A stretch of 52,593 nucleotides of DNA, taken from IMG/VR virus record IMGVR_UViG_3300050119_000254, positions 1-52,593 of that record; one strand, 5' to 3'. The DNA is from a virus. Below, one piece after another: positions 3,209 through 38,601 of this stretch (position 1 is the first letter of the stretch; every line of letters starts with the position of its first letter). Under the pieces are notes generated by a model, which was not told the DNA's origin, searched no databases, and was given only the letters and a program-made list of their open reading frames with translations. A program made the translations under genes and the position numbers.

Positions 3209-3216
3209 CTAAGTAT
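3209..3216 (+). promoter_or_regulatory. late-type CTAAGTAT box
   Basis: CTAAGTAT ends 5 nt before the ATG at 3222. No Shine-Dalgarno sequence lies in between. Confidence 0.5.
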
Positions 3217-3221
3217 TGGCG

Positions 3222-5552
3222 ATGAACGTCGCCCACTATTACGCGCCCAGAATTCGCCGCCGTGCACGGGACCGGAGGATCGCTGATCAAAAGGAAGCTG
3301 TTCAGGAGGTTCAAGCGGAGGAGTCGCTGATCATTCAACCGGAGTGGCAGTTCTTTGTTCACGGCAAACCGGCCACAATTCAGATCAACGAGAGCTACCA
3401 AGTAGCCGGTAGGCAGCTACCGACGATGTTGGGCGAGTGCTCGATGCCGGTCGCCGTCGTCCTGCAACGATTCGGTGACTTGTCCGGCCAGCTACCATGG
3501 TTGAATGAAGAGGTGTCTAGCTGGGTGCGCGAGTCAAGCATGCAGGTATACTTGAATCCGGACCATCCAGATCATATCTGGGCGATGGAGAGCTTGCACG
3601 ACTGCCTGATCCAACATGGGTGGACTAACACTGTGCAAGAAAGCTTCAAATGGAGAAGCTTCAAATGGAGATTGGACGAGCCTGCCGATGATTATTATTA
3701 CTGTAACTATAAGCAATATATTGTCACCGTGTGCAAGTCCAGAGTATGTGATAGGTGGATATTGTGTGTAAGTTTATGTGATCGTCGTTGTACGCGGATA
3801 AGCCCCACAATCGTGGATGACTTGGTTTTCGACACTTTAGAGGACGCGCAACAGTCAGCCGAGGCAACCATTTTAGCGGATGAGTCAGACCGGCGCGATG
3901 CACGTAAGATATCCACCGATCAAGCTGATCTTCCGGAGTCGTTGCAGGAGGCGCGCTGGGCCAGCATGGGACGCAGTTGGACAACGCAGATAGGTAATTG
4001 TGGCCTTTGGGTTAGTCCTGCGGACAGTTTATCACGCGCCGGTGAAGAAGGAGCGAAAGGCTGGCGCTGGACCTTATATCAAGGGCATGATCATCGGTGG
4101 ACTGACGACGCACGAACTGGCATTGAACCGACTGTTGATCAAGCTAAGGAAGCCGCCGTTATGGCGTATCGTCAGATGGGTCAGGACGCCACTTCACGCC
4201 TCGATCTTCTGGAAGCTGTGCAGCTATCGTGGAGGAAGGAAGATGATGAATGGAGAGGCTTCAACAGCCGGTACACCGCCTACATCAGGAAAATTGATGG
4301 AGGCTACATCGACCATCCCGGCATGCAGTGGAAATGGTCACTATTTCGCGCCAGAATCGAAACGTTGATCGAGCAGAACTTTGCTAGAACTTTTGATGAT
4401 GCTAAGGCCGCCGTGATGGCGTCGATCAACGCTGATGCATGGGTGCGCAGCCCTAATCATCCTGATATTGATGATCTTCCGGAATCCACTAGCTGGAACT
4501 GGCTCGGCTTCTCCGATGCTGGATTTTGTGGACACGATAAGAGGTTCAAGTTTATAGCTTATGTGGACCAGGTTATCGGCACAAGCCACCCGGAGTTCGG
4601 AAGATGGAAGTGGTCTGCCAGCTCCCATGACGAGTCGATGTTTGGGGAGGGATATTGTGATAACAGTAGGGAAGCTAAAAAAGCGGTGGAAGCATTTGTT
4701 CGAGATTGTTCGAAGAGTGGAGGGGATCTTGACCTTCCGGAGTCGCAGCAGCCCATCCAGGCGCTCAGCGAGGTATCTTTCCGCCGTCTCATGCAATATA
4801 CGCAGGCCAATGGGCGATATAAGGCGGGCGGAATGCGCCGCGTGGCTGGGAAGTGGATTTACGACCCCACCGTGGCGGGCCGGATCGAGAATTCCCGGTT
4901 CGTCCTGACCAATCCGCCGCGCATCAGGATCGATACTGACGGCTACGCGATCATCAATTACTCGTTCAAGTCCCGATCCGACCGATGCACCTCCGGATTA
5001 AGAGCGCGCGGTTACGTCAAGTTCATCACCGGCGACAAGCGCGCTAAATATCAATTCGGCCAGAAGGTAATGGTGGGCTGCAGCTGTGCCGATTTTAAAT
5101 ATCGTCAGGCATTCGTGCTATCGAAGATGGGGGCGTCACATACTCCTACTGGGGCTGGAGGCGAAGCTACCAACACTCCACCGGTGATCACGAACCCACA
5201 TATGCTACCGTCACTGTGCAAGCACGGCGTCGCGGTAGCTGCTTTTGTGACGAAGAATGTGAAGGATTTTGAGCAGCAAGTTCGGGATATGAAGCGCCAG
5301 TCGAAGGTTGAACCTATTGCTCCCGGTAAGTCTCCAATCGTGAAACCTGATGATAAGGTCAGCAAACCGGAAATTACTCCAAAGCCTAGCAAGCCTAAAG
5401 ACAAGAACAAGAAACCGTTGAACGTGCCGGACGTTGATAAGAAGGTCATGGATCGCAAGGCAAGAGAGGCGGCGGAGCCGCCCGGTGGCGAGGAGTCAGA
5501 GGCCACCCCACGGGATAAAGATAGAGACGGACAAAGCGATAGCGGTCGGTAA
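3222..5552 (+). CDS. multi-module DLPES protein with SWIM-type zinc finger
   Basis: A 776-aa mosaic protein. Residues about 140-510 hold four related modules of about 90 aa, each with Trp-rich strands (for example KWKWSASS, GWRWTLYQ), a helix of the type AKxAxxAxI, and an end at DLPES. Clear sites are at nt 3927-3941, 4473-4487 and 4731-4745; a decayed copy reads LDLLEA. LPE followed by S fits the (L/I)-x-E consensus of T4-type prohead protease. Residues about 550-680 form a SWIM-like finger (CSCADF, then CKHG near the end). The tail is Lys/Pro/Asp-rich and disordered. ATG 3222 is chosen over TTG 3216 because of the late-type box. Likely a virion protein cut into pieces; the biochemical role of each piece is unknown. 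Confidence 0.7.
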   Translation: MNVAHYYAPRIRRRARDRRIADQKEAVQEVQAEESLIIQPEWQFFVHGKPATIQINESYQVAGRQLPTMLGECSMPVAVVLQRFGDLSGQLPWLNEEVSSWVRESSMQVYLNPDHPDHIWAMESLHDCLIQHGWTNTVQESFKWRSFKWRLDEPADDYYYCNYKQYIVTVCKSRVCDRWILCVSLCDRRCTRISPTIVDDLVFDTLEDAQQSAEATILADESDRRDARKISTDQADLPESLQEARWASMGRSWTTQIGNCGLWVSPADSLSRAGEEGAKGWRWTLYQGHDHRWTDDARTGIEPTVDQAKEAAVMAYRQMGQDATSRLDLLEAVQLSWRKEDDEWRGFNSRYTAYIRKIDGGYIDHPGMQWKWSLFRARIETLIEQNFARTFDDAKAAVMASINADAWVRSPNHPDIDDLPESTSWNWLGFSDAGFCGHDKRFKFIAYVDQVIGTSHPEFGRWKWSASSHDESMFGEGYCDNSREAKKAVEAFVRDCSKSGGDLDLPESQQPIQALSEVSFRRLMQYTQANGRYKAGGMRRVAGKWIYDPTVAGRIENSRFVLTNPPRIRIDTDGYAIINYSFKSRSDRCTSGLRARGYVKFITGDKRAKYQFGQKVMVGCSCADFKYRQAFVLSKMGASHTPTGAGGEATNTPPVITNPHMLPSLCKHGVAVAAFVTKNVKDFEQQVRDMKRQSKVEPIAPGKSPIVKPDDKVSKPEITPKPSKPKDKNKKPLNVPDVDKKVMDRKAREAAEPPGGEESEATPRDKDRDGQSDSGR

Positions 5553-5565
5553 CATTCATTCCGTC

Positions 5566-7071
5566 ATGTTGGTGTTACCTCGAAACTGCACGGTGTGCAA
5601 ACTTTCATTTATGCCGTCAGGTCCAAGAGCTGGCGCACTGAAACGGTGCGACAGTTGCCGGACATATTCAAAGAGAAAGTGGCAGGAGAATGGCGACAAA
5701 TATAAGTGTCGCAACAATTTGGAGCGCGCGGAGCATAGCAGATTGAGAATGGTAAGGGCTAGAATACGAAATGAGCAGTTGCTTCTCGCAACATATGGGG
5801 TCGACGGCAGTTATGTGTGCCCATGCGGTTTCAGATCTCCGATCAAGCGCCAGTTTTCGTTTCATCATGTTGACCCGTCAATTAAAACGTGTGAGATCAC
5901 GCGTAAATTGCGTGCATTGAGCTTCAGCATAGACCTACTCGAATCCGAGGGCGTCATAATGAAGTGTGAGAACTGCCACCGAGTGGAACACGGTAACGGC
6001 GGGGCAAAGAGGACTATGTGGAAGCGCCTTCAAGACGCTGGGGTAGATCTAATATGCTGCATGTGCGAGGGCAGATTCGACCCGTGCGTTTACGACTTCC
6101 ACCATCTGGGCAACAAGCGTTTCAACGTCAGTCAGACTAATTGGAAGCTTGATAATATGTTACCAGAGCTGCGGAAATGCGTGATCGTGTGTGCCAGGTG
6201 CCATCGAGCCATCGATGCTGGAGTGCCTTGCCCATCAACGTTGACCGTAGGACAGCAGATCGATCAGCGACGAGTTGTATGCCATCAACGCAAGGTTCGC
6301 AACGCTGATGAACCAGCCAGCAGGTTGACGCATCCGCAGCTATTTGATAGGCCATTGGGTGACTTCATGCTGCAAAAGGAGCCTTATTCGACAGAGCTTA
6401 AGGAGTTCATCGAGCGCCGCGATTGGACCCAGCGAGTGGGCAACACCCCAAGATGGTGCTTCACAGCCCGGATTGATGGTGTGTTAGCCGGTGTCATCAT
6501 GATTGGTCAACCGCCCGGCCACACGACTTTGTTCAAGAACGACGCGGATTATCACGACGCCCAAGCCGTTATTCAGCGTGGGGCGTCCGCGTCGTTTGGT
6601 CACCGTAATCTCGGCTCCAAGCTGATCATGTGGTCGATTCGTTGGATGGTAAGGAACACCGAGAAGCGCACGTTTGTCGGATACGCGGACCCGGAAGCTG
6701 GTGAGCGTGGTCGAATCTATGCGGCTTGCAACTTCCGACACATCATTGGAGATTTCGGAGCTAAAATTTGCCTTCAACACCCAGACGTGAATGATGGTCA
6801 ACCATTCTCGCCATCATACTTGTACCACTGGCGGCGGATTAAGGAACATCTGATGCATTTGAGACTATGGAAAACCGAGTATTCGGTTGGTGGCGTCCCG
6901 AAGTCTCTGATGGAGCGCTGTCATCGACACAACAAACGGATTATGCATCAAGCCACAAGGGTTCGCACATCCTCGAAGAGGAAGTGGGTGCTGGTGGCGG
7001 CGCCCAACAAGCGTGAACTAAAGCGTCTGCAAAGCGAGCTGCTAGCATTGCGTCAAGATACCGTCCCGTAA
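5566..7071 (+). CDS. HNH endonuclease fused to Mom-like GNAT domain
   Basis: A 501-aa protein. The first about 230 residues contain zinc-finger pairs (CTVCKLSF, CDSC) and two HNH-like units (CPCGF...FHHVDP...CENCH and CCMCEG...DFHHLG...CARCHR), typical of phage homing endonucleases. Residues about 250-500 match the gene at 23913-24716: RGASASFGH, SKLIMWSIRWMV, then YADPEAGERGRIYAACNF. That last block resembles the Mom family of GNAT-fold DNA-base modifiers. ATG 5566 is preferred because a CATTC box (5553-5557) lies 8 nt upstream. The 3' end overlaps the convergent gene by 30 bp. HNH is confident, Mom-like moderately so; the fusion may reflect an HNH gene captured by or invading the modifier gene. 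Confidence 0.7.
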   Translation: MLVLPRNCTVCKLSFMPSGPRAGALKRCDSCRTYSKRKWQENGDKYKCRNNLERAEHSRLRMVRARIRNEQLLLATYGVDGSYVCPCGFRSPIKRQFSFHHVDPSIKTCEITRKLRALSFSIDLLESEGVIMKCENCHRVEHGNGGAKRTMWKRLQDAGVDLICCMCEGRFDPCVYDFHHLGNKRFNVSQTNWKLDNMLPELRKCVIVCARCHRAIDAGVPCPSTLTVGQQIDQRRVVCHQRKVRNADEPASRLTHPQLFDRPLGDFMLQKEPYSTELKEFIERRDWTQRVGNTPRWCFTARIDGVLAGVIMIGQPPGHTTLFKNDADYHDAQAVIQRGASASFGHRNLGSKLIMWSIRWMVRNTEKRTFVGYADPEAGERGRIYAACNFRHIIGDFGAKICLQHPDVNDGQPFSPSYLYHWRRIKEHLMHLRLWKTEYSVGGVPKSLMERCHRHNKRIMHQATRVRTSSKRKWVLVAAPNKRELKRLQSELLALRQDTVP

Positions 7072-7689: not shown

Positions 7690-8281
7690 ACAGCCTTCAC
7701 TTCAATCGTTTCGCGACGCCTTCTGCCTCGGTGATCCATTGAGCTCCAATCTTTGGGCAGCATGCCGATGGCGCAAGGAGCCCAACGCCACGGCCTGCAA
7801 CTATACGGTTGTGATCTTCAATCTGTCCAACACTCTGAAGGCGCAATTCAAGCTGCAGAGTTCGCAAATTCCCTACGGGGACGAGGATAATATCGCCGAC
7901 ATCTCAATTCCAGTTGAATCCGTCAACGACACTTCATCTCCCAACGCTGTCACCTGGGCATGGCAGAAAGGATTGTTCAACAGTTCGTTCATCGATCTGC
8001 CCGTATACGTCAACGACAGTCTCAACACGACCGTCGACCTGTCGATCGTTCCGGGTGGACAAATCTCAATCAGCTTCACTAGCAACGCTCCGTTCATTCA
8101 GTGGGTGCCGCTGGCTAATTCAGGAGCGCGGTTGCAAGTGATCGCGGGCACGACCCAGCCGATCGCGGTCTGGAGTCATGAGGAAGTTCATCCGATGCCA
8201 CAAGATGCCAATGGTGGGTCGTTCCCGCTGGTGGGAATCTCGGTCTCGGAAGGCAATTCTGGCAACATGGACGACGCCTAA
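7676..8281 (+). CDS. putative virion structural protein
   Basis: A 201-aa beta-rich protein (segments CNYTVVIFNLSNTL, GGQISISFTS) with Asn/Ser/Thr-rich composition typical of phage tail or fibre proteins. ATG 7676 is favoured by the late-type box just upstream. No specific family recognised. Confidence 0.55.
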   Translation: MLHATQPSLQSFRDAFCLGDPLSSNLWAACRWRKEPNATACNYTVVIFNLSNTLKAQFKLQSSQIPYGDEDNIADISIPVESVNDTSSPNAVTWAWQKGLFNSSFIDLPVYVNDSLNTTVDLSIVPGGQISISFTSNAPFIQWVPLANSGARLQVIAGTTQPIAVWSHEEVHPMPQDANGGSFPLVGISVSEGNSGNMDDA

Positions 8282-8291
8282 GAGATCTAAG

Positions 8292-9974
8292 ATGCGACCA
8301 TTCCCACATTGCAGCAGAGCGGTTGAGCTTCATTTCAAGCGTCGGAAAGTGATCGAGCGCGTCCGGCCAGCTATTCCGATTCCATCTGTGCATCTGACAT
8401 TGATGGAAGCTGATCTTGACCTTCCGACGTCTCCCCCAGATCAACCGCCAGCCCGCCCTATGTCGCCAAGCGATGGAGGCGATGGAGTCGGACAAATCAT
8501 CCGCCAATATAACACGATCTGGCTGTCGGCTAAAGAATATTTTGACGGCAAGGTCGATGATCTTGTTCATCTGCCCGCCGAGTCCAAGGACAAACTTTTG
8601 GCGCAGGCCGCGTCCGGGCTGATCGCCCAATATGAGCTCGACCCGTCCAAGGAGCCGAGCCGCGACCATATTCGTGACACCGCGCTGATGCTGGCCGACA
8701 AGATCGACGACCTTTACCAGGATCGTGGACCGGACGAGCAGAAGGAATATGCCAACCGGCTCGCCCAAGGGTTGCGGGAATTTCACAACCAGGTCGATCC
8801 AGGGAGCGAGGAGCCCGATGATGAACCAACCGACGACGCTCCCGAGAAGCCTGCCAAGCCCAAGGTATCCAAGGAACCCAAGCACGACTTCGACCGCGAC
8901 ATGGCTAGGGAGCTGCCGAACCGCCATCAAGGCGTGACGAGGCGGCGTCCGCAGGAATCAATTGACGAATCATTGAAGAGTAACTGCGCCGCAAATGGTG
9001 TGGACGTTGGGTTCTTGAATCAGTTAACCAGCGCCGTGTATCCGAGGGCGGGTAGACTTAATAGTCGCGTCTTTAATAAGCTGTTTAACGCCTACGCTGA
9101 AAGGATTGCCGGATGTTTTGCGCCAGAAGATAGTGAGGATACGTTGAAGCATCAATGTTTCGATTATTTACCGTTTTACCGTAAGGAAATTCGAGATAAC
9201 GACATTGCGTTGGGCGTAGCGCTAGCGATTGGGGATGATAAGGAAGATCAGGACGAAGTGTTGAGCATGTTGCGTGGAAGAAGTCCATGCAAGACCCTCA
9301 TCAACAGACTCCGGAAAATCTTGATCGTTGGGCTTGTATCGACGCCATCCGGCACGTCACCCAAGACGTTGATGGTGGCACGGGTTGGTGACTATGAAGG
9401 TATAATTCGCCAGCTTGATGCGCATTCAGTGAAGGACGGTGAAGAAGCTGGTCAATGGCGTTGGATAGTTATTAGTGAGAACGATTTCGACTTTGAACAG
9501 CGCGGCGTTGTCGATACCATGGATCAAGCTAAGGAGGCGGCGGAGGCGACCATTCGTCAGCACAATGCAAAATCCGGCAACAGCGCAGACCTGCCGGAAT
9601 CGATGGTAGATCGGCTGCTGGAGACCGACCCCACGTTGAGCATGAACTTTGTCCATTGCCCGGAGTGCGGGCTCAAGTGCCGCCGCTCCAATGGGAAGTG
9701 CTTGTGCAACCATTGTGGTCATCGATTCAATCACGTGATCGATGATGATCTTCCCGAGTCCACCCATTCGCGCAATGCCTTGGCGCCAGTTAAGGACGCA
9801 CTGATCGCTTACATCAAGCAGCACCCATATTCGGCGTTCACTCCTGAGAGCTTGGCGCACGCTACTGACCAGGACATCATCATGGTGCTGAGCGCGCTGC
9901 GATCATTGAAGCGCGAGGGAGCATTGCGAGTCCAGAAGCGCACTCGTCGCAATCTCTACGAGCTTCCATTATGA
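8292..9974 (+). CDS. DLPES polyprotein with zinc-ribbon and winged-helix modules
   Basis: A 560-aa mosaic protein. An N-terminal region includes DLDLPTS and a charged, Pro-rich linker. A middle helical region leads into the about 90-aa Trp module (GQWRWIVIS, then DQAKEAAEATI) ending in ADLPESMVDRLLE (DLPES at 9588-9602). Next comes a compact zinc ribbon (CPECG, CRRS, CLCNHCGHRF), then a second DLPES at 9747-9761. The last about 65 residues look like a winged helix (VKDALIAYIKQHPYSAFT, then LRSLKREGALRV). Cutting after LPE would free the ribbon and the winged helix as separate small proteins, which suggests nucleic-acid-binding cargo. Cleavage is predicted, not shown. ATG 8292 is the first start after the upstream gene. 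Confidence 0.65.
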   Translation: MRPFPHCSRAVELHFKRRKVIERVRPAIPIPSVHLTLMEADLDLPTSPPDQPPARPMSPSDGGDGVGQIIRQYNTIWLSAKEYFDGKVDDLVHLPAESKDKLLAQAASGLIAQYELDPSKEPSRDHIRDTALMLADKIDDLYQDRGPDEQKEYANRLAQGLREFHNQVDPGSEEPDDEPTDDAPEKPAKPKVSKEPKHDFDRDMARELPNRHQGVTRRRPQESIDESLKSNCAANGVDVGFLNQLTSAVYPRAGRLNSRVFNKLFNAYAERIAGCFAPEDSEDTLKHQCFDYLPFYRKEIRDNDIALGVALAIGDDKEDQDEVLSMLRGRSPCKTLINRLRKILIVGLVSTPSGTSPKTLMVARVGDYEGIIRQLDAHSVKDGEEAGQWRWIVISENDFDFEQRGVVDTMDQAKEAAEATIRQHNAKSGNSADLPESMVDRLLETDPTLSMNFVHCPECGLKCRRSNGKCLCNHCGHRFNHVIDDDLPESTHSRNALAPVKDALIAYIKQHPYSAFTPESLAHATDQDIIMVLSALRSLKREGALRVQKRTRRNLYELPL

Positions 9975-12690: not shown

Positions 12691-13431
12691 ATGGCACTTC
12701 CGATTTCCACTTGCTACGAAGGCGACAATTATCAGTTTCTAGCTCGGACCAGGGCGTTCATCACGGCGCTACCCGACATTTTCGAGCGTCTGCATGATCT
12801 CGATTTGGATCATTCCTATCGTGGGATGCAGAAGCTGAGGTTTGTGGAGCAGCTGGAGCTCGGGGCCGGGACGACCCATTTTTATAATGCCAAGAAGGAT
12901 ATGTTGTCAGTGTTCCCGATGGCGTTTAGCGCCGGTGGGCGGATCGATCTTACCCTCTACGAAGGGCTGGGACAGCGCCATTGGCAGACCGGGATGTCGT
13001 CGGCCCACAAGGTGACGTGGGCGAGGTGTCTGGTTAAGGCCGACCAGCACGTCGTGGACCGGATTGATGAAGCGCTCGCCAGCGCTGATGACGGTCAGTT
13101 TCTCGACATCGTCGGTCTCTTCCACTCGGCGACCGAGAAGCTGCAGGCCATCCATATCGTCAACGCGATGGTGCGCAACTCGATGTCGATCACCCAGTTC
13201 GCCAACATGAGCGTGCGTGACTACCCGGCCACCAAAGATTTCTGCGCTGGCGACCGGCCCTACTCACTGATCCCACTGCTGAGCGCTTACGCAGCCCGTT
13301 GCGTCCGCCGGTATCCGGAAGCCTTCGCTCAGTATTGTGCGCGCTCAGGCCACCTTCCAGTTTCCGAGACGTCAACGGAGGCCGCGTTCGTGAGGCTGTT
13401 CAAATCGGTGACGCTGAGCGACCATGCGTAA
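12691..13431 (+). CDS. hypothetical protein
   Basis: A 246-aa mostly helical protein with no motif I can name. The late-type box at 12679-12686 supports ATG 12691. Its end overlaps the start of the DLPES gene at 13424 by 8 bp. Confidence 0.6.
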   Translation: MALPISTCYEGDNYQFLARTRAFITALPDIFERLHDLDLDHSYRGMQKLRFVEQLELGAGTTHFYNAKKDMLSVFPMAFSAGGRIDLTLYEGLGQRHWQTGMSSAHKVTWARCLVKADQHVVDRIDEALASADDGQFLDIVGLFHSATEKLQAIHIVNAMVRNSMSITQFANMSVRDYPATKDFCAGDRPYSLIPLLSAYAARCVRRYPEAFAQYCARSGHLPVSETSTEAAFVRLFKSVTLSDHA

Positions 13432-14434
13432 GCTGAGATGGCGAAAGAACAGTAACGGTGGACTATGGACTGATTGGGCAACGGACAGATATCGTCGAAC
13501 CACAGAGTCCGATTACATATTTGTCATATCGAGAGACAACGCGGGGTGGTTGTGGCGTTGTTACAACGTTGTTGACGATACCATATTTTTCGGTACGGTG
13601 ACGATGCGCATTGCAGCGATCGAACAAGGCGAGAAGATGGCCGCACAGACGATTGGAGACAGCGATCAAGACCTCCCTGAGTCGCTGTTGGAAGCCAACG
13701 AATATCACGACGCTAGTGACCCCAAGTCGTTGACGCGCGCCACGGTTGGGTACGGTAACCGTCTTTTCAAGATCGAGCTCGGAATATATGGTAATGAGTT
13801 TCTGGTGGCGGGAGACTGTGCTGGTGATGCGATGGATGCGCTAATTGACTGGCTGGATGGTCATAACTCTCCGTGGGTGATGACGCCAGAACAAGAGGCA
13901 TCGCTCGATGACTGTGAGGGTGAGCACTATCTCAGTGGTGGTAATTACGGGAAACACTTGGATTGCGGTGCTGAGGAAGTATGGATTACACAGGTCCCGG
14001 CTAAGGATGCTTTCCTGACCCGTGAGGAACAGCGCGCGATCGCAAGGGCGAAAGCTGCGGAGCTCGATCTCCCAGAGTCATCGAAATGGTCCAAAAACTG
14101 GCTGTTCGATCTTGTCTATCGCAGCCTCGATGGCGTTAATCGAGAGTTATTAGCTGCTCGAATATCCGAGCAAGCTAAGTGGATCATTATTGCCGGGAAA
14201 GTGACAGGTAAAGGTTCCTTGCAAAACACAGTGGATCGAGACATTGGTTACCAACGAGCGGCTGAATGGGCGGGCCGCGATTGGGGTCGCATCATTACTA
14301 GGCTACAAGGATTGCGTGACGGTCGCAATTATCGTCCGGTCAGAATCGACCTCACGCCCGGTGTGGACTGGATGTCGGGAGGCCCGCAAGACCTTCCGGA
14401 ATCATTAGCTGACCAACTATTGGGGGCCAAATGA
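13424..14434 (+). CDS. DLPES multi-module protein with C-terminal DLPES tail
   Basis: A 336-aa protein made of three units. It opens directly with a Trp module (KLRWRKNSNGGLWTDW, then GWLWRCYN) ending at DLPES (13670-13684). A second unit of about 130 residues ends at DLPES (14066-14080). A third ends in the C-terminal tail QDLPESLADQLLGAK (DLPES at 14390-14404). LPE is a T4-type prohead protease signature. The tail recurs in three other genes and may be a C-terminal targeting peptide. ATGA coupling links it to the next gene. Biochemical activity of the modules is not recognised. Confidence 0.65.
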   Translation: MRKLRWRKNSNGGLWTDWATDRYRRTTESDYIFVISRDNAGWLWRCYNVVDDTIFFGTVTMRIAAIEQGEKMAAQTIGDSDQDLPESLLEANEYHDASDPKSLTRATVGYGNRLFKIELGIYGNEFLVAGDCAGDAMDALIDWLDGHNSPWVMTPEQEASLDDCEGEHYLSGGNYGKHLDCGAEEVWITQVPAKDAFLTREEQRAIARAKAAELDLPESSKWSKNWLFDLVYRSLDGVNRELLAARISEQAKWIIIAGKVTGKGSLQNTVDRDIGYQRAAEWAGRDWGRIITRLQGLRDGRNYRPVRIDLTPGVDWMSGGPQDLPESLADQLLGAK

Positions 14435-14778
14435 GCAGCGCCATCATCAGATTCCTGACGCAAAGGTCATCCATCCAGACCCGCAACCACCGCGACATCC
14501 TGGACCTGACCGGCACAGTGCCGCCGTCTACTCCACCGCCTCCGGGACCGCGACAGGTGTTGCTCACTCATTCACCGGGTCAGATCGACGTTCGAATCCT
14601 CTATCCGGACGGCCAATCTGAGATGATGTACCATGGTCCGGACCTGTTCCTGAAGCTCACCCAGAGAGGCTTACCTGCTTACAAGCTGGAGCGAGTCATC
14701 GATCATCTTTGGAACTTTTATCAAGTTTATGTGGACTGTGACGAGGAGCCGAGGCCACCAAAAATTCAGCTCGAATGA
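14431..14778 (+). CDS. hypothetical protein
   Basis: A 115-aa protein between two DLPES genes, coupled to both by ATGA-type overlaps. A Pro-rich segment (PPSTPPPPGP) near residue 30 leads to a mixed alpha/beta C-terminal half. It lacks the DLPES motif. Function unknown. Confidence 0.55.
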   Translation: MSSAIIRFLTQRSSIQTRNHRDILDLTGTVPPSTPPPPGPRQVLLTHSPGQIDVRILYPDGQSEMMYHGPDLFLKLTQRGLPAYKLERVIDHLWNFYQVYVDCDEEPRPPKIQLE

Positions 14779-16043
14779 GAAACTGGCAAATCAACAGATT
14801 TGGTGAGTGGAAGTATCATTCGTCGAGCGGCATCCATCGCCAGTACCATGTTCACATATGGCGCGAAAAACAGTGGGTGTGGGAGGCGTCCCACAAAGTC
14901 GATAATTGTCACCATGTGATTGGTAGAGGACATTCAACTAACGTTGAGCTGGCTGCCCAAGAGGCTGAGAAATCGATCCGGACGCACGCTGCCACGCTTC
15001 AAGTGGATCAGGATCTTCCGGAATCTATGGGCGGTGAGGTGGTTCTTAAACCCGGTGACGTTATCTTGGTGCGAGGGATCTCCAGAACATATCGCGAGGT
15101 AGTCGATCATTGCGCCCATGATTTGGGAACCGTATACGCGCGCTGCACCGGGATAAGGGACCCTCGGTTACATGGTGGAGCATGGCCAATAAGCCAAGTG
15201 ATCGCTGTCAAGATCGACGGTCAGATGCGGCCCGTTAAATATGACGAAGATACTAGTAAGTTTTGGTGGATCGACAACGATCTTCCGGAGTCCACAACGT
15301 CATTGAATTGGAAGGAAGACCCAGATGGCGCGTGGAGCGCTCGCCTTGGCACCAAATACGAGGCAGCTATCAGGAAGAAATCTGACAAATGGGTGTGGGA
15401 TGTGACCTACAATCTTGGAATGTTTAGCTGTGAGCAATGTGGATACGGGGCGGAAGACACTATTGAACAAGCCAAGATGAAAGCTGCTGATACGATTCGC
15501 GGTGAAATTTCAAGCCGCCGCAGTGTCAGTCAAGATCTTCCAGAGTCCGCGCCGGAATGGGTGGACATGACCATCACCTCCCTGAACGTTGACGCTGACG
15601 GTAAATATCTTGGATTTTATCGAGGCGAGTTTACGTGGCCGCGTAATATTGGCAATCTGATCATTAAGGTCCCATCGATAACGTTTGACGGAGACATTTG
15701 GGTGGAGGGTGACATCGTGGCGGATGGTGACGTCAATGTGGCGGATAATGAGATCTCGGCAGGCGGCAACATCCTAGTGAAGGGCGACATCGTGGCGGGC
15801 GGCATCATAGCGAACGGCAACGTCTGGGCGAACGGCAAAATCGTAGTGGATGGTGGTAACATCAGCGTGGGAAAGGGAGGTAGCGTCCGATCACCACACA
15901 TCACGGCGTTACGCGTTTATACAAATTATGACCGACACGACGTCGTTGATGGTCAGATCGTGCGGAGATCTGGCGCTAGGACTGGACAAAAGTCTAGGGG
16001 CCAAGATCTTCCGGAATCATTGGCTGACCGGTTGCTCGGTTAA
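14775..16043 (+). CDS. DLPES polyprotein with bactofilin-like beta-helix
   Basis: A 422-aa mosaic. Units in order: a Trp module ending at DLPES 15012-15026; a beta-rich unit of about 85 residues (KPGDVILVRGISRTYREV) ending at DLPES 15279-15293; a second Trp module (LNWKEDPDGAWSARLG, CEQCG) ending at DLPES 15535-15549; and a C-terminal right-handed beta-helix with repeats like GDIVADGDV and GNVWANGKIV, followed by the tail QDLPESLADRLLG (16005 on). The beta-helix resembles bactofilin/DUF583 repeats. The protease gene starts 76 bp downstream, placing putative substrates beside their enzyme. Cleavage is predicted from motif only. Confidence 0.65.
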   Translation: MRNWQINRFGEWKYHSSSGIHRQYHVHIWREKQWVWEASHKVDNCHHVIGRGHSTNVELAAQEAEKSIRTHAATLQVDQDLPESMGGEVVLKPGDVILVRGISRTYREVVDHCAHDLGTVYARCTGIRDPRLHGGAWPISQVIAVKIDGQMRPVKYDEDTSKFWWIDNDLPESTTSLNWKEDPDGAWSARLGTKYEAAIRKKSDKWVWDVTYNLGMFSCEQCGYGAEDTIEQAKMKAADTIRGEISSRRSVSQDLPESAPEWVDMTITSLNVDADGKYLGFYRGEFTWPRNIGNLIIKVPSITFDGDIWVEGDIVADGDVNVADNEISAGGNILVKGDIVAGGIIANGNVWANGKIVVDGGNISVGKGGSVRSPHITALRVYTNYDRHDVVDGQIVRRSGARTGQKSRGQDLPESLADRLLG

Positions 16044-16105
16044 CGGTCAATCGCCGTCGCTTTAGGTTGCCATTGTATTATGGTCGCTTTGCCACAGCTT
16101 TGCCA

Positions 16106-16113
16106 CTAAATAT
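16106..16113 (+). promoter_or_regulatory. late-type CTAAATAT box
   Basis: CTAAATAT ends 6 nt before the protease ATG at 16120; GAGG lies between. I see no ORF in the 76-bp gap 16044-16119. Confidence 0.5.
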
Positions 16114-16119
16114 CGAGGC

Positions 16120-18054
16120 ATGAAACCAGCAAAGCCTGCAGGATGGCAACCGTTGATTGAAGAGAAAATTTTTCGCCCCATTGGGGAGCCCGTGTTGGTG
16201 GAGTCCGCCGAGCTAGGTCGCAAGGTCTTGCGGCAGCATGGCGTCATCCAATCGTACACCCAGCGCAACCAGAATGGTCGGCTCTATCCGAAGAAGCTTT
16301 GGGAGGCGCTATTCAAGCCGGACAGCGACTTCATGGAACGGCTCCAGAGTCGCGCCATGGTCGGGCTTCTGGAGCATCCGGAGGACGGGATCACCAGGCT
16401 CGACCGAAGTCCTAGCCATCTGATGACGGAAGTCCATTTTGCCTCGCCCAAGGAGATCACGGAATCCCGCAAGTCCGACCCCAAGCACCCGTTGGAGGAA
16501 GGCGACATCATTGGGACGCTCGAAGTGATCGAAGGGACCCGTAACGGCGATGAGCTCAAGGCGCTCATCGAAGCCAAGGTTCAAATCGGCGTCAGTTCAC
16601 GAGGCGGCGGAACGCTCAAGGAGGATGGGGAGGGCCACACCGTCAACGAGGATTATGAATGCGAGACCTGGGACGTCGTGCAGTCGCCATCCGTCAGCCG
16701 CGCCATCCCGCGCAAGACCGAGGTCACTCATGAATCGGCTCCGGTCCCTCCCGTCCCACCAGTCGTGGAAGCTGTTCCGCCAACTCCTGCCCCGGTCGTG
16801 GAGTCCAAGGTTCCGGTCGCTCCAGTGGTCAAGCTTTTCTGCGAGAACGGCGCCGTCCGTTACGAGATCGTCGAGGATGCCACCGGCTCCCATGTCTACG
16901 ACCGCAAGGATGAGAAAAATCTTCACGACTGCGCCACTCCGGAACTGGCTCACCAATGGGTCATGGAAAACCTTAAGGCATCCGCTCCCGCCCAAGCATT
17001 ACCGCTCGCGCCTGTCGTCAAGCCTTCCACGCCAGCTCCCTCGGTTCCACTTCAAGAATCAACCAACACCACTATTATGTCACATCGCGATAAGCTCCGC
17101 ACCCTCGACCTGGACGTCACCCGTCTCACTTCCACGCCCGTCAAGGGTTTGAAGCCATCGGCCAAGTCGTCCATGTTCGAATCTATCACCAGCCTCCGCG
17201 TCGAGATCGCGGGCGTCCTCAAGGAGGACTCGACCCTGCAGCCGATCGCCGACAAGCAGCTCAAAAGGCTCACCGAATACGAGGACGAGCTCGATGCCGA
17301 GCCGATTCCGGAGGGGCCTGTCTCCCACGAGGGTGACGGCGACTTCGAGGACTTTGATCACGCCGACGAAGGTGGTGGTGACGACGATGTGATGTGCCGG
17401 GCCGCCGCCAAGCTTCGGACCCTCGGTGACGAGGGGGATGAGGAAGCTGCCGGATTGGCCGATGAACTCGATGCCGTGTGCGGTGATGGTGATGAACCGC
17501 CCATGGATGACGTCCCACCGCCCGCCCCTGAGGGCGACGCTCCTCCGATGGAGTCGAAGCTCCGCAGCTTCATCAAGAGGATGAAGGGCAAGTACGTCAA
17601 GCTTGAGAGCGCTCATCGCCGCCTGACCGCCGCGACCGCCACGCTGTTGGAGCGCTACCGGACCGTCAAGAAGCACCTCACTGAGAACGGTGGGGGGCGT
17701 CCCGCCGACCAGCAGTCGATCGAGGAATATGAGAATGCTGCCCGCGACATTGCGGACCGCTATAACCGCCATATGATCGAGATGGGCAAACTGCTCATGC
17801 AGGCCAAGCAGCCTGGACTCTATGAGGCCAATGAGGACCGCTTCAAGCGCGTCCGCACCTGGAAGCAGTTCGGCGAGGTCTCCCAGCAGGTCGTGGCCAA
17901 GCGTCCGCTTCGCGAGGGCGTCCAGCCTCCGGTCAAGAAGCCAGCATCGAGCTCCTCCACCAATCCGCCGCCCGATCCGCCTCTCACGGAAACCGTCCAC
18001 CCGTCCGTCATGATGGCAACGCGCGCCCGCCACCGGTCCACCATTACGGGATAA
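16120..18054 (+). CDS. prohead core protease fused to scaffold
   Basis: A 644-aa protein. Residues 1-200 match T4 gp21: NQNGRLYPKKLWEAL near 51-65, catalytic His in GLLEHPEDG near 86, and catalytic Ser in QIGVSSRGGG near 159. T4 gp21 is about 212 aa, so this one has an extra about 430 residues: a Pro/Val-rich linker, then a charged helical region (YVKLESAHRRLTAATATLLE) like a gp22-type scaffold. A candidate self-cleavage site LQES lies near residue 311 and an internal Met follows at nt 17077. The enzyme would mature the head and is the natural candidate to cut the DLPES and tag motifs seen elsewhere. Fusion of protease and scaffold in one ORF is unusual for T4 relatives. Confidence 0.88.
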   Translation: MKPAKPAGWQPLIEEKIFRPIGEPVLVESAELGRKVLRQHGVIQSYTQRNQNGRLYPKKLWEALFKPDSDFMERLQSRAMVGLLEHPEDGITRLDRSPSHLMTEVHFASPKEITESRKSDPKHPLEEGDIIGTLEVIEGTRNGDELKALIEAKVQIGVSSRGGGTLKEDGEGHTVNEDYECETWDVVQSPSVSRAIPRKTEVTHESAPVPPVPPVVEAVPPTPAPVVESKVPVAPVVKLFCENGAVRYEIVEDATGSHVYDRKDEKNLHDCATPELAHQWVMENLKASAPAQALPLAPVVKPSTPAPSVPLQESTNTTIMSHRDKLRTLDLDVTRLTSTPVKGLKPSAKSSMFESITSLRVEIAGVLKEDSTLQPIADKQLKRLTEYEDELDAEPIPEGPVSHEGDGDFEDFDHADEGGGDDDVMCRAAAKLRTLGDEGDEEAAGLADELDAVCGDGDEPPMDDVPPPAPEGDAPPMESKLRSFIKRMKGKYVKLESAHRRLTAATATLLERYRTVKKHLTENGGGRPADQQSIEEYENAARDIADRYNRHMIEMGKLLMQAKQPGLYEANEDRFKRVRTWKQFGEVSQQVVAKRPLREGVQPPVKKPASSSSTNPPPDPPLTETVHPSVMMATRARHRSTITG

Positions 18055-18102: not shown

Positions 18103-19563
18103 ATGAACGGAATCTCCTCAAATCAACTCGCCGAAACCTTCGTCCGGGGCACTCGGCTGGCCGAAACCAGCATGGGCATCGGCGTCAAGGATAGTCTCAT
18201 CGAGGCCAAGGGCTGGAAGGAGATGGTGGCCGGGATCAAGGACGACAAGAAGCGGGCTCTCTGCGCCATCATGTTGGAGAACTACCGCAAGTACCGCAAA
18301 GGGCTTGATGAGGCGACCAGCACCCTGCAGGTCGGCAACTTCGATAAATGGGCGTTCCCGATCATCTCGATCGTCAGTGAGAACCTGATCGCTCAGGACC
18401 TGGTCAGCGTTCAACCGCTGGAGGGTCCCTCAGGATTGGTGTTCTTCATGAACTTCACGGCGGGCCAGTCCAAGGGCAACGTCCAACGCGGCGCCAAGAT
18501 CTGGGATGCCCGCACCGGCCATGCGGAGCGCTTCCTCGACAGCAGCGACCGGGTTCCCAATGAGCCAATTGTGTGCACGACTGGAGACCTGAGCAGTGGA
18601 GCGGCGATCAGCCTCGCCTATGCGCCAGTGGTTCCCGGCACGGTCTCGGTCGCCATCGGCACGTCAGTCCTGCGCGATGATGGAAACGGCAACCTGGTCG
18701 TGGTCTCAGGGCCAGCAGGCGGCGCCGGAATTGACGTGGGCGACATCGACTACCCGACCGGGTTGATCAGCTTCACGACCGCTGAGAACACGGCCACGGT
18801 CGCCGAGTTCAGCTACAATTACAATCCCGAGCTCAACCCCGAGGCCCAGCAGGTCGACTTTGAGATTCAGTCCAGCCCCATCTACGCTCAGGAACGGAAA
18901 CTGCGCGGGCGCTGGTCCACTGAGGCCGCTCAGGCCCTGGAAGCGCTTCACCAGATCAACGCCGAGGACGTAGTCTCAACCGCGATCACCAACCATCTGC
19001 AATGGGAAATCGACCGCGAGATCATCGAGGACCTCCGCAGGCAGGCCGGAGCCGGTCTGGTCCGTTGGTCCGCCCAGATCCCGGCGACCAGTTACATTTC
19101 GTACACCGAGCACAAACTGTCGTTCATCGACGCATTGGTGACCGGAAGTAACTTCATCTACCGGGCGACCAACCGGGCAAAGGCTAACTGGGTCCTGGCG
19201 GGCATGCAAGCGACCAACATCCTGGAGACCCTTCCCCAGTTCGAGCCCCATGGTGGCGCCGATACCGAAGTGGAGGGCGTGAGCATGCTCGGCACGATCG
19301 GTCGCACCAAGGTCTACAGCGATCCTCACTACAATGTCGACGAGGCCCTGATGGGATACAAGGGCAACGACTTCGTTCGCACCGGCTACATCTTCGCGCC
19401 TTGGATCTTGCTCTACTCCACGATGCTCATCACACTGGATGACTTCATCGCCCGCAAGGGGTTTGCTAGTCAGTACGGGAAGAAGCTCGTCAATTCGAAG
19501 TTCTATTGCAAATTGCAACTCAGCGGTTTCTCGGCGGAGTTTGGCAGCCTCGCCGGTACGTAA
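18103..19563 (+). CDS. major capsid protein, gp23-like
   Basis: A 486-aa protein directly downstream of the protease-scaffold gene. Typical gp23-family landmarks are FPIISIVSENLIAQDLVSVQ and the following GPSGLVFFMNF, and RRQAGAGLVRW in the middle. The N-terminus holds several (L/I)-x-E sites (QLAE, RLAE, SLIE) within the first 35 residues, where T4 gp23 is trimmed by the prohead protease. Length is close to T4 gp23 (521 aa). A strong hairpin follows the gene. Confidence 0.9.
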   Translation: MNGISSNQLAETFVRGTRLAETSMGIGVKDSLIEAKGWKEMVAGIKDDKKRALCAIMLENYRKYRKGLDEATSTLQVGNFDKWAFPIISIVSENLIAQDLVSVQPLEGPSGLVFFMNFTAGQSKGNVQRGAKIWDARTGHAERFLDSSDRVPNEPIVCTTGDLSSGAAISLAYAPVVPGTVSVAIGTSVLRDDGNGNLVVVSGPAGGAGIDVGDIDYPTGLISFTTAENTATVAEFSYNYNPELNPEAQQVDFEIQSSPIYAQERKLRGRWSTEAAQALEALHQINAEDVVSTAITNHLQWEIDREIIEDLRRQAGAGLVRWSAQIPATSYISYTEHKLSFIDALVTGSNFIYRATNRAKANWVLAGMQATNILETLPQFEPHGGADTEVEGVSMLGTIGRTKVYSDPHYNVDEALMGYKGNDFVRTGYIFAPWILLYSTMLITLDDFIARKGFASQYGKKLVNSKFYCKLQLSGFSAEFGSLAGT

Positions 19564-19625: not shown

Positions 19626-20507
19626 TCAGCTAATCCGTAGTGGATATGGCAGTGGCTTGGTTAGATCCAATTGATGGATGCAAACTCCGTGCACATGCTT
19701 ACTATGATTACAGTTGGCACATAGACATTGGAACAGTCCGGCGTCGTTGCCATCTCGCGCAATCGTTCGATACAACTTACCGCCCCGTAATCCGTTCTCG
19801 CTACGCCCTTCGCCGAATATATGATCGACGTTCAATCGTGTGAATCCGTCTTCCCCACAACACACGCATTTATTTCCAAGTGCAGCGAGTGCAGCCACTC
19901 TGGATATGCGATAGTCTTTGTGCACTCCCTTACCAACCCACTCTAGCGTAATGAGTTTGTGTTGCTGACAATTGCGACACATCGTTTGGAGATTATCGGG
20001 GAAACCGGACTTCACTAACATGTGATAATTGTTGCCGCTAAATCGGCGACCGTTGGTACGTGCTTTTCGCTCTATTGCGCCATCGCTGTCGATATGATCG
20101 AGCGTTAAGAATTCCACCGGTAAAACCTTATCGCAACCAACACAGGTGCGACCATAATGATCAAACACTGTGGATATATGCAGTTCGCGCCGCGCCCGTA
20201 CGCACTTTCGTTGTGCGGCTAATTGTCTTTGGTGCCGTTCTTCCTTTGTTAGTTTGGGAGGCAGTGGATGTAACAACCGATAAGTAGCATGTCGAGCCTT
20301 CTCGGCAGCCAAACGTTGCTCTCGGTGCTCCTGATAGTATTTCCCTTGCGTCGCTTGCTTCTTGGCCTTTACCTCTGGCTTAGCGCCTTGCTTGCGAGCG
20401 GACTCACGGCGAGCTACAGGGTTGGCAGCATAACGGGCACGGGCCTGAGCCTTGATCGTCTCATGGTGCTCGGCGCGATACTGACGCATATATTCGGCTG
20501 TTGCCAT
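19626..20507 (-). CDS. HNH endonuclease with two HNH units
   Basis: A 293-aa protein. A basic N-terminal half leads into two zinc/HNH units: CVGCDKVL...LTLDHIDSDG...CRNCQQHK and CVCCGED...LNVDHIFGEG...CANCNHSK. It lies next to the capsid gene and divergent from a related HNH gene, a usual homing-endonuclease position. A CGTTC box (20517-20521) lies 9 nt before the ATG. Confidence 0.8.
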   Translation of the reverse strand: MATAEYMRQYRAEHHETIKAQARARYAANPVARRESARKQGAKPEVKAKKQATQGKYYQEHREQRLAAEKARHATYRLLHPLPPKLTKEERHQRQLAAQRKCVRARRELHISTVFDHYGRTCVGCDKVLPVEFLTLDHIDSDGAIERKARTNGRRFSGNNYHMLVKSGFPDNLQTMCRNCQQHKLITLEWVGKGVHKDYRISRVAALAALGNKCVCCGEDGFTRLNVDHIFGEGRSENGLRGGKLYRTIARDGNDAGLFQCLCANCNHSKHVHGVCIHQLDLTKPLPYPLRIS

Positions 20508-20556: not shown

Positions 20557-21396
20557 ATGATATTAACACCAGAACAACGAGAACACCGTCGCGCCACCAG
20601 ACAGGAGCGTCGCCGACTTAACAGAGAGGCCAACAACGAAGCGCATCAAAAATTGCTTCAAAGAGGTGGTCGATATATGGAGTTACACGGCAGCAAGTAT
20701 ATCGGTAGATATGTGAAGGGTAGTAAACATTGGCGCGATGAGAACGTTGAGTGGGTGAATTTCCGCAACTCTGTGCTGGAATTGCGAAAAAAGTATTTGT
20801 GTTTGGCCCAATACGGCGGTAAATGCGTCGGGTGCGGAGAAACCCACCCGTATCGGCTGACGTTCGACCATGTTAACGACGATGGGGCCGACGAACGACG
20901 GAAGGGTGTCAAGATATACCCATGGTTGATCAGGAACAATTTCCCCAAGGATATTATCCAATGCTTATGCTGGAATTGTCAGCAGTTCAAGAGACCGCGC
21001 CAGGAGGGTACATATTTTGATATGTTACATCGGGGAATGGTAACAGCGCTTGGTGGCAAGTGCGTTACTTGCGGAATTGATAACTTAAGGCTCCTAACCG
21101 TGGATCATCTTGATGGTGGCGGAAAGCAACACATGCGGACGATCGGCGCAAGACGCCTCTATAACGAAGTGATCAAACATATTGCGGATGGAAAATCTGG
21201 CGTCTATGCGGCCAAGTGCATATCTTGCAACAGCGCGTCCGGCATCATCAGGGTGCGCTACCCAACTATGAAGGAGCGGTTTGAGAAATATCGGGAACAC
21301 TTGAACCCGGAAGATATTCTACTGATGGAACGGGATATATTGGCCGCTGAGCTACTCACCGCCTACCATCATGACGTTACTCAAGAGAGGCGATAA
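20557..21396 (+). CDS. HNH endonuclease with two HNH units
   Basis: A 279-aa relative of the divergent gene next to it. Units are CVGCGETHPYRLTFDHVNDDG...CWNCQQFK and CVTCGIDNLRLLTVDHLDGGG...CISCNSAS. A CATTC box (20544-20548) lies 8 nt before the ATG. Its 3' end overlaps the next small gene by 26 bp. Confidence 0.8.
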   Translation: MILTPEQREHRRATRQERRRLNREANNEAHQKLLQRGGRYMELHGSKYIGRYVKGSKHWRDENVEWVNFRNSVLELRKKYLCLAQYGGKCVGCGETHPYRLTFDHVNDDGADERRKGVKIYPWLIRNNFPKDIIQCLCWNCQQFKRPRQEGTYFDMLHRGMVTALGGKCVTCGIDNLRLLTVDHLDGGGKQHMRTIGARRLYNEVIKHIADGKSGVYAAKCISCNSASGIIRVRYPTMKERFEKYREHLNPEDILLMERDILAAELLTAYHHDVTQERR

Positions 21397-21664
21397 ACCA
21401 CGCCACCACTATCGCGCTTCGTGGGAGATGTCGTCGGGAGAATTCGATGACTTAGCGTTTGGGATAATAAAGCATGACTTTACATTGTATGTTAATCTGG
21501 TTCGCGATACGTTTATCTGGTGCGTGTTTGATCAGGGATCATTTCCGTTATTCGAAGGGTCTAGTCGCACTATGCGAGGCGCTAAAAAGGCTGCCGAGTA
21601 CGCAGTTTCACGAGTGTTGTGCGCACGGAGGCGTAACATCGGCGGTTTCGACCTGCCCGTATGA
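21371..21664 (+). CDS. single Trp-module protein ending in DLPV
   Basis: A 97-aa protein that looks like one free copy of the about 90-aa module found inside the DLPES proteins: LYVNLVRDTFIWCVFDQG, then AKKAAEYAVSRV, ending in GGFDLPV and stop. The stop falls where DLPES would sit, and the next gene starts in the ATGA overlap. ATG 21371 overlaps the HNH gene; Met at 21428 is an alternative. Confidence 0.5.
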   Translation: MTLLKRGDKPRHHYRASWEMSSGEFDDLAFGIIKHDFTLYVNLVRDTFIWCVFDQGSFPLFEGSSRTMRGAKKAAEYAVSRVLCARRRNIGGFDLPV

Positions 21665-21876
21665 GTGATCCGATCCAGCGCGGGTATCAGGGTGTAATCT
21701 GGTTGAACGATCACGGTGTCAATGTTGTGGTCACGAACGTTAGAAAGGTTGTGTCGCTCAATATGACGCTGCACCGGTACACGGTCGTGGATGGTCAGAA
21801 CAGTCATGTGACCAGCATCGTATTCGCGAGGCGTCAACGATCACGGAAGGGATTGGAAGATCTTGACCTGCCATGA
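21661..21876 (+). CDS. small paralogous protein ending in DLDLP (copy 1)
   Basis: A 71-aa protein, first of three tandem paralogues sharing RGYxGxxR, VNVVVTxV and YTVVDGQxSxVTSIV. It ends in DLDLP right at the stop. ATGA overlaps on both sides. Family not recognised; the fold is likely a small beta barrel. Confidence 0.55.
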   Translation: MSDPIQRGYQGVIWLNDHGVNVVVTNVRKVVSLNMTLHRYTVVDGQNSHVTSIVFARRQRSRKGLEDLDLP

Positions 21877-22127
21877 GCATGGAGCATCATCTTGGAATCA
21901 GTCGTGGATACCGGGGCCGTGCCAGACGTGACGATTCCATGGGTGCGGTCGTTAACGTGACGGTGCTGCGAGTTTGCCGGACATCGACGTTTATGTATCG
22001 GCCATACTTGGTCGGGGACGGTCAAACCAGTCACTGGGTCAGCATCGTGTTTGAACGCTGTCGGAGTCGGCACAGGTTCGATCGGGCAGCCATGGGATCG
22101 TTTAATGATCTCGACCTACCTGTATGA
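21873..22127 (+). CDS. small paralogous protein ending in DLDLPV (copy 2)
   Basis: An 84-aa second copy: SRGYRGRARRDDS, VVNVTVLRV, VGDGQTSHWVSIV, with a longer C-terminal linker and an end at NDLDLPV. Coupled by ATGA to both neighbours. Confidence 0.55.
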   Translation: MSMEHHLGISRGYRGRARRDDSMGAVVNVTVLRVCRTSTFMYRPYLVGDGQTSHWVSIVFERCRSRHRFDRAAMGSFNDLDLPV

Positions 22128-22345
22128 TCGATCCCGCTGAAATTAAGCGCGGGTATCGGGGCCGGGTAAGGCTCGCTTCCGGCAAGATCCTGAATGTTGT
22201 GGTGACGAAGGTGGGGCGCAGTCCTCCCAATGCTATGTTGGCCAGATACGTTCAATACACGGTCGTGGACGGGCAGAGCAGCTACGTCACCAGCATCGTT
22301 GATCCCCGTCGATGTGATTCGGTGGATGAGGACTTGCCTGATTGA
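22124..22345 (+). CDS. small paralogous protein ending in DLPD (copy 3)
   Basis: A 73-aa third copy: KRGYRGRVRLASG, LNVVVTKVGR, YTVVDGQSSYVTSIV, ending in DEDLPD. The three copies differ enough at DNA level to be old duplications under selection. Confidence 0.55.
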   Translation: MIDPAEIKRGYRGRVRLASGKILNVVVTKVGRSPPNAMLARYVQYTVVDGQSSYVTSIVDPRRCDSVDEDLPD

Positions 22346-22359
22346 CGCTACTTATTGTG

Positions 22360-22675
22360 ATGAAAGCTTTGCGATATCATGTGAAACCTGGCGACAAGGG
22401 TCCGTTCTATGCTTATTCGGAAGACTTTATCGGCGCGCTGGTGGGACCTTTTACCACTTTGGAAGAAGCTTCATCGGCACGTGAGAAGGATGCAAGCCTA
22501 TACCGATTACGGGGACGACTTCCTTGGTGTGGTGACGCCGAGCCATCCAGAGTTCGAAGAGCTTAAAGATAATGGGTTGGGGATCATCTCGCCTGAACGG
22601 GATAGAAACATGAATAAGTCCAAGCTTGATGCGTCGGACTTGCCGGAATCACTGGCCGATCGATTGCTCGGATAA
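22360..22675 (+). pseudogene. frameshifted small protein with C-terminal DLPES tail
   Basis: ATG 22360 opens a frame (MKALRYHVKPGDKGPFYAY, then TTLEEASSAREKDASLY) that continues, after a shift near 22497-22505, in the next frame (TDYGDDFLGVVTPSHPEF) to SDLPESLADRLLG and stop. The two halves join naturally as one about 105-aa protein. The tail is almost identical to that of the gene ending at 16043. Either one base is wrong in the assembly or the gene is broken. Confidence 0.5.
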
Positions 22676-38304: not shown

Positions 38305-38601
38305 TTAATTTAGTAAACGGTTGACCAGCGATTCCGGGAGATCCTGATCAGTTGATGTCGGTTGCACTGGTTTACCATCAACGATTTCACAACGGCGACC
38401 ACGGATGTAACAACGCTTGGTGGTGATGCTTCCTCCCACCCTGATGGTGAATTGCGCCCTGACCTCACCCTCTGCCCTGATGGCGCCCTTGAACCTTATC
38501 CGGGCGACCTCAATGGTCAGGTTATTGAGGTCCGCTGGTAATGTACCGGTATAGTAACATTGGGCGTTGACGTCTTTGGCGGTGATGGTGAGATCGGACA
38601 T
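38305..38601 (-). CDS. small bactofilin-like protein with DLPES tail
   Basis: A 98-aa protein: beta-helix-like repeats (ARIRFKGAIRAEGEVRAQF, TIRVGGSITT), a short stretch CEIVDGKPVQP, then the tail DQDLPESLVNRLLN. It is a miniature of the C-terminal part of the 14775-16043 product, including similar VDGxxV residues before the tail. It lies about 19 kb from the main DLPES cluster and on the other strand, so the tail travels with the module or is under selection. Confidence 0.65.
   Translation of the reverse strand: MSDLTITAKDVNAQCYYTGTLPADLNNLTIEVARIRFKGAIRAEGEVRAQFTIRVGGSITTKRCYIRGRRCEIVDGKPVQPTSTDQDLPESLVNRLLN

Follow-up and report, generated by a model that had tools for sequence, protein, structure and literature searches.

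Does a phage protein in which the motif DLPES precedes a zinc ribbon, and again precedes a basic winged-helix-like end, represent several small proteins that are cut apart? The question is raised by an open reading frame in IMG/VR record IMGVR_UViG_3300050119_000254, a complete virus record all 52,593 bases of which constitute the window analysed here. The source virus appears to be T4-related and to infect bacteria. The window was compared with six relatives retrieved via the capsid protein (L002–L007) and with a second, independent DLPES-rich viral contig, IMGVR_UViG_3300050119_000188 (G001). Coordinates refer to the plus strand unless marked otherwise, and a slash within a motif marks a putative cut.

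Organization of the open reading frame

The frame is open from 8178 to 9974 and probably starts with the ATG at 8403, giving a protein of 523 aa (8403–9974). The true start is ambiguous; the alternative, a GTG at 8388, would open the protein with a CTS-like MHLTLME/A. Both DLPES sites (9588–9602 and 9747–9761) are exact and, at the positions given in a sequence-only reading, lie in this one 523-codon frame, with the C-terminal order NSA-DLPES-MVDRLLETDPTLSMNFVHCPECGLKCRRSNGKCLCNHCGHRFNHVIDD-DLPES-THSRNALAPVKDALIAYIKQHPYSAFTPESLAHATDQDIIMVLSALRSLKREGALRVQKRTRRNLYELPL-stop. The protein is composite. Its first ~140 aa match a stand-alone gene in L003, L005, and L006 (E values of 2e-9 to 2e-18), and no counterpart of the W-module (described below), the ribbon, or the winged-helix-like end was found in those three. 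Searches of phages, viral_contigs, and genome_contigs recovered no relatives of the whole protein or of its ribbon–winged-helix end, and neither Pfam nor NCBIfam returned a peptidase domain within the 523 aa, a divergent one being possible.

The compact ribbon expected between the two sites is present and is of the C2-C2 type (9657–9719). Direct reading reveals two canonical CPxCG...CxxCG knuckles, CPECG and CNHCG, and the ribbon would be a zinc-binding protein. Profile matches are weak (phrog_9188, E 3.7e-4; Pfam Zn_ribbon_8, E 0.003, below the cut-off), and a PDB sequence search gave ribbon matches at chance level only (L37Ae, E 0.18). The fragment after the second site (9759–9974) has 71 aa (8.0 kDa, pI 10.1) and ends in YELPL. 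Searched alone it weakly matches the MarR-type phrog_1687 (E 0.001) and the Ren-like phrog_142 (E 0.006), and a Pfam search gave no match. The end described in the sequence-only reading is there, with its winged-helix class weakly supported by profiles.

An AF2 single-sequence model of the 124-aa ribbon–winged-helix stretch, built with no alignment, has a mean pLDDT of 57.5, with about 80 in the ribbon core; at this low confidence it contains helices at residues 62–74, 82–86, and 90–117 and no wing. Because of the pLDDT of 57.5, the zinc ribbons of RNA polymerase and of ribosomes that Foldseek matched to the model (best E 0.33) were dropped as functional evidence. Going by the weak profile matches, both fragments may bind nucleic acid, and the winged-helix-like one is possibly a small basic DNA-binding protein.

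DLPES copies and the modules between them

The motif occurs 14 times in apparent genes in the six frames of the window and is the most frequent 5-mer across all window ORFs; 100 base shuffles of the window gave a mean of 0.05 copies and a maximum of one. Twelve of the 14 copies, against 0.003 expected from residue shuffles, sit in four polyprotein ORFs. These are the frame at 8403–9974 and those at 3216–5552 (four W-modules and a SWIM-like CxC...CxH module; sites at 3927, 4473, and 4731, and DLLE/A near 4206), 13424–14434 (sites at 13670 and 14066, and a C-terminal tag DLPESLADQLLGAK at 14390), and 14775–16043 (two W-modules, a stretch that is SH3-like by eye, and a bactofilin-like module; sites at 15012, 15279, and 15534, and a tag DLPESLADRLLG at 16005). 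G001 contains 12 copies in the same layout and was the only further DLPES phage recovered with a degenerate QDLPESLA pattern scan; in the other six contigs the DNA examined contains just one exact copy each, which is taken as chance. The 26 copies in the two contigs use two codons for D, five for L, four for P, two for E, and four for S, and with codons so varied the motif is maintained at the protein level and not as a copied DNA repeat. By eye, DLPES-bearing proteins of G001 (L009 17977–19053; G001 15543–17072, minus strand) include ADP-ribosyltransferase-like and GNAT-like stretches, the former without a match in Pfam.

A W-module (9276–9587), recognized by alignments and by an HMM lacking the DLPE end, lies directly upstream of the first DLPES and belongs to a beta4-alpha family. 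The window has eight copies of ~80 residues, each ending at DLPE or DLLE, that have diverged to 19–35% identity. An AF2 model of the copy at 15297–15530, built with all eight sequences (pLDDT 95.0, pTM 0.82), is a beta4-alpha domain that halts just short of DLPES; in the model, this neighbouring module type is an independently folding domain. In structural comparison the domain comes closest to 6d7k_H, the inhibitory subunit of methane monooxygenase (Z 9.5, rmsd 1.9, 67 aligned), ahead of unrelated and dsRBD-like folds (Z 5–6), and no function was assigned from these matches. A search of phages with the W-module gave no match, and homology of W-modules between the window and G001 is not claimed (E 0.02–0.04 with the HMM lacking the DLPE end).

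Modules are also exchanged at the motif. The final module of ORF 14775, downstream of the DLPES at 15534, corresponds to an entire stand-alone G001 gene (E 5e-17), and the homology starts near the first residues of that gene; module starts and stops coincide with DLPE/S in two phages. The module map and these swaps reveal several distinct domains per polypeptide, encoded near the head genes, as in polyvalent proteins.

A prohead protease as the presumed cutter

Just downstream of the DLPES polyproteins are a prohead protease-scaffold fusion, the presumed cutter (16120–18054; Peptidase_S77, 8.1e-10; S80, 2.2e-6; phrog_207, 2.4e-26), and a gp23-type major capsid protein (18103–19563; PF07068, 2.5e-48) whose first 35 residues contain LAE/T, LAE/T, and LIE/A. 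The phage thus encodes an S77/S80-type prohead protease alongside a gp23-type capsid protein, and the DLPE at 9588 and 9747 places L-x-E at P3–P1. T4 gp21 is described as cleaving after L/I-x-E (PMC9026906), and for SPN3US gp245 the described cut follows A-x-E, Ser being favoured at P1′ (PMC10052503).

The broader pattern hydrophobic-x-E-[AST] is enriched in the protease-scaffold protein of this phage and in those of four relatives (10–17 occurrences, 3–4 expected), as well as in most polyproteins (e.g. 8 versus 2.0 and 5 versus 1.0). It is not enriched in UvsX (0), the helicase, or the RNA ligase. Two results qualify this contrast: the SSB has a P of 0.023, and for the ORF at 8403–9974 alone the count (4 versus 1.5, P 0.066) is not significant.

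The SWIM-like module of ORF 3216, recognized by eye, has 33–48% identity to sequences in L003, L004, and L006, and in L003 and L006 the homology begins directly after the DLPE/S at 4731. The junction reads LDLPE/SQQPIQALSEVSF in the window, QLLVE/SPQLLMEMSF in L003 and L006, and GDLEE/SVHTLTEMTF in L004, where it is the sole hydrophobic-x-E-[AST] in a protein of 570 residues. Since hydrophobic-x-E-S is kept and the full DLP is lost, the junction is more in keeping with proteolysis than with docking. At its N-terminal end the ORF 3216 protein can be aligned to the start of the L003 protein (score 52, versus 43 for the best of 300 shuffles), so the four W-modules look like an insertion into a pre-existing cleavage point. 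Close to their head genes, L003 (3598–5400) and L006 (4018–5973) encode a polyprotein in which PV[TR]E[AS] is the repeated motif and a SLADRIL tag is internal; this suggests that the stereotyped site differs from phage to phage.

The adjacent T4-type protease, the L-x-E rule, the conserved hydrophobic-x-E/S junction, and the module boundaries at the site in two phages all argue for proteolysis, and DLPE/S is probably a head-maturation cleavage site cut by the phage's own prohead protease. Cleavage at both sites would free two small proteins, the ribbon (53 or 45 aa) and the 71-aa winged-helix-like fragment. The proposal that two small nucleic-acid binders are released thus holds unevenly: the cleavage site is well supported by indirect evidence, separate release is plausible, and binding depends on weak profiles.

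C-terminal tags and DLP gene ends

Four window genes close with DLPES and a few further residues rich in leucine (LADQLLGAK, LVNRLLN, and two instances of LADRLLG). The tags DLPESLADRLLG and DLPESLVNRLLN close a short ORF (22637–22675) and a stand-alone bactofilin-like gene (38305–38601, minus strand), respectively, and G001 has DLPESLADRLLDIQ, DLPESLSDRLLNYVDC, and others. A like peptide is internal in L003 and L006, between two hydrophobic-x-E sites (FAE/SASKSLADRILSE/AE), and L006 has a similar tag near the N-terminus of another protein (ITLADRLLTE/AD). Possible mini-genes of 20–21 residues, mostly tag, are seen at L008 3600–3774 (minus strand; MINIDQDLPESLADRLLDIQ) and at 22609–22675 of the window (MNKSKLDASDLPESLADRLLG), although the latter may instead be the tail of a longer ORF.

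The sequence-only reading did not remark that the first site in the ORF at 8403–9974 is followed by a peptide of the same form as the gene-ending SLADRLLG, namely SMVDRLLE (9600–9623), so that DLPES-MVDRLL-E matches the gene-closing DLPES-LADRLLG. Because DLPE/SMVDRLLE/TDPT shares the tag form, the 53-residue ribbon fragment (6.1 kDa) may be trimmed at a second possible cut, LLE/T, to 45 residues (5.1 kDa).

Genes also end in DLP itself. At 21326–22345, four small ORFs lie in tandem and terminate in DLPV, DLP, DLPV, and DLPD, and in three of the four the ATG of the next ORF overlaps or touches the stop. The short-ORF array at 21326–22675, three members of which are paralogues by eye (RGYxG...VDGQ..S...SIV), thus has a stop/start in the place of a protease site. 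G001 has gene ends of the same kind (DLPE, DLPD, and DLPI). Among ORFs of at least 60 codons in both contigs, 10 end in DLP or DLPx versus 0.36 expected, and DLP is the commonest terminal tripeptide in each; the YELPL end of the ORF at 8403–9974 resembles these ends, a likeness that is suggestive only. Internal DLP in the polyproteins is followed by E[SAV], whereas the residues after a gene-end DLP are free. Our reading is of two constraints, with DLP forming part of the module tail and E/S needed only where a cut is made. DLP itself may be a cargo, docking, or packaging signal, given that both contigs have short stand-alone genes with DLPx at their ends. A pertinent precedent from T4 is that Asp at the cut site of IPIII stops processing and leaves targeting unaffected (PMC9026906).

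The DLPx gene ends are not explicable by cleavage alone, and they favour a different explanation, in which DLP(E) is the packaging signal, a short docking motif or C-terminal tail by which cargo binds the core of the prohead or the capsid, it is not or need not be cleaved, and the frame encodes a multi-domain protein with several docking motifs. The small ORFs allow no following cut, the codons at gene-end DLPx vary synonymously, and DLPES is longer than the L-x-E that a T4-type protease requires. We nevertheless consider this explanation unlikely, as the relatives retain hydrophobic-x-E/S and not DLP at the homologous SWIM junction, the polyproteins have E-[SAV] after DLP as a protease site requires, and L003 and L006 repeat another motif with the same E/[AS] core.

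Tags and gene ends can be brought together in a more general scheme, which we put forward tentatively and as the less probable version. Small folded modules would end in DLP(E) and be either strung together, with the prohead protease cutting in trans at DLPE/S, or encoded as separate, overlapping genes with DLPx ends; a C-terminal head-packaging signal would be provided by the DLP end or by DLPES-LADRLLG; and modules like the zinc ribbon and the winged helix would be swapped as injected effectors.

Fate of the fragments

Returning to cleavage, the joint reading that we consider probable on balance is of a cargo polyprotein that enters the prohead core, is cut by the phage's own protease, and yields fragments that are retained in the head and ejected with the DNA. 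The phage would have a T4-type head, and the ORF at 8403–9974 would encode its cargo polyprotein, brought into the prohead core, where the S77/S80-type protease would cut after Glu at DLPE/S, with a further cut probable at LLE/T just past the first site. Products would be the upstream modules, a zinc ribbon of 45–53 aa, and a basic winged-helix-like protein of 71 aa, and the freed cargo would stay in the head until it leaves with the DNA on ejection. We infer the cleavage, packaging, and ejection, as well as the nucleic-acid binding of both fragments. That the ribbon and winged helix are injected and act as early regulators is speculative, the early timing being drawn from analogy with T4 internal proteins and nothing further.

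The sites might also be cut while the ribbon, perhaps with the linker region, is a spacer or propeptide that is lost or degraded, leaving the larger modules and perhaps the winged-helix-like fragment to act in the host. The ribbon fragment is just 5–6 kDa and opens with the tag-like SMVDRLLE, and T4 core and propeptide fragments are described as mostly exiting the head (PMC9026906); its CPxCG/CxxCG knuckles are, however, intact and would be superfluous in a mere spacer, and we regard this fate as quite improbable. Far less credible still is that DLPES is an evolutionary relic or a flexible, inert linker that was copied along with duplicated modules and serves neither proteolysis nor docking: the eight W-modules of the window are indeed paralogues bearing the linker, but DLPES also links unrelated modules (ribbon, winged-helix-like, SWIM-like, and bactofilin-like), ends unrelated genes, is common to G001, and keeps its five residues constant with varied codons while the W-modules have fallen to 19–35% identity, and a pure relic was rejected on these codon and context grounds.

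Other genes in the window

The gene at 29590–30135 encodes a 2H phosphoesterase-like protein (2_5_RNA_ligase2, 7.5e-7; Acb1 anti-CBASS family, 2.7e-5, just under the cut-off) with a T4-like N-terminal CTS, MNPFDFAQLLE/S, and is a candidate head-packaged counter-defence protein. It is followed by a GNAT acetyltransferase gene (30132–30656; 3.2e-7) with the CTS-like start MTPATYAELLE/D. Similarity to the Mom family (DNA modification) is found at 5434–7071 and 23913–24716 (E 1.6e-6 and 3.4e-5). By eye there are three HNH-type endonuclease look-alikes (19626–20507, minus strand; 20557–21396; 51917–52453), two of which come directly after the capsid gene; homing endonucleases often directly follow capsid genes. 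An IS605-type OrfB/TnpB look-alike, also by eye, is within the phage contig at 30990–32273.

Relation to known systems

The arrangement resembles T4 IPI, IPII, IPIII, and Alt in the adjacent T4-type protease and gp23-type capsid genes, the cut after hydrophobic-x-E, and the small, varied cargo. T4 internal proteins carry a CTS (PMC3012670, PMC9026906) and Alt is trimmed at both ends (PMC9026906). Other window proteins likewise have N-terminal CTS-like starts (MNPFDFAQLLES at 29590 and MTPATYAELLED at 30132). However, the T4 internal proteins are single proteins with an N-terminal CTS, whereas here several modules share a chain with an extended, stereotyped DLPE/S between them, and most tags stand at the C-terminus (DLPESLADRLLG).

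Polyvalent proteins of phages and plasmids, as presented by Iyer et al. 2017 (PMC5512222), have many small domains per polypeptide, with inferred co-delivery with DNA and proteolytic release; the processing enzyme proposed there is an in-cis peptidase domain, MPTase. Here, in contrast, the presumed cutter is a separate prohead protease, the searches of the chain itself having turned up no peptidase domain. Head processing in giant phages by SPN3US gp245 and phiKZ gp175 (PMC5694885, PMC10052503) is similar in having Glu at P1, Ser preferred at P1′ (SPN3US), and several cuts per protein (PMC10052503). It differs in that, as far as the consulted parts of these sources go, all cuts except the protease's own remove N-terminal propeptides, and they describe no modular cargo release or repeated extended motif.

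A limited literature search did not find DLPES together with phage, nor, in the parts of sources consulted, a description of cargo strings cut in trans that combine one stereotyped site with a C-terminal tag. Overall, our verdict from sequence comparison is of a probable variant of two known kinds, the processed internal proteins of T4-type phages and the polyvalent effectors, in which stereotyped sites would be cut in trans. If this is correct, a repeated protease site with a C-terminal tag would reveal head cargo and its boundaries from sequence, and would provide a C-terminal packaging tag to set against the N-terminal T4 CTS. A tailed phage would be using the polyprotein strategy, best known in RNA viruses, to deliver several small proteins along with its DNA, and its modules, the ribbon and the winged-helix-like fragment among them, would be candidate early host-takeover or counter-defence proteins.
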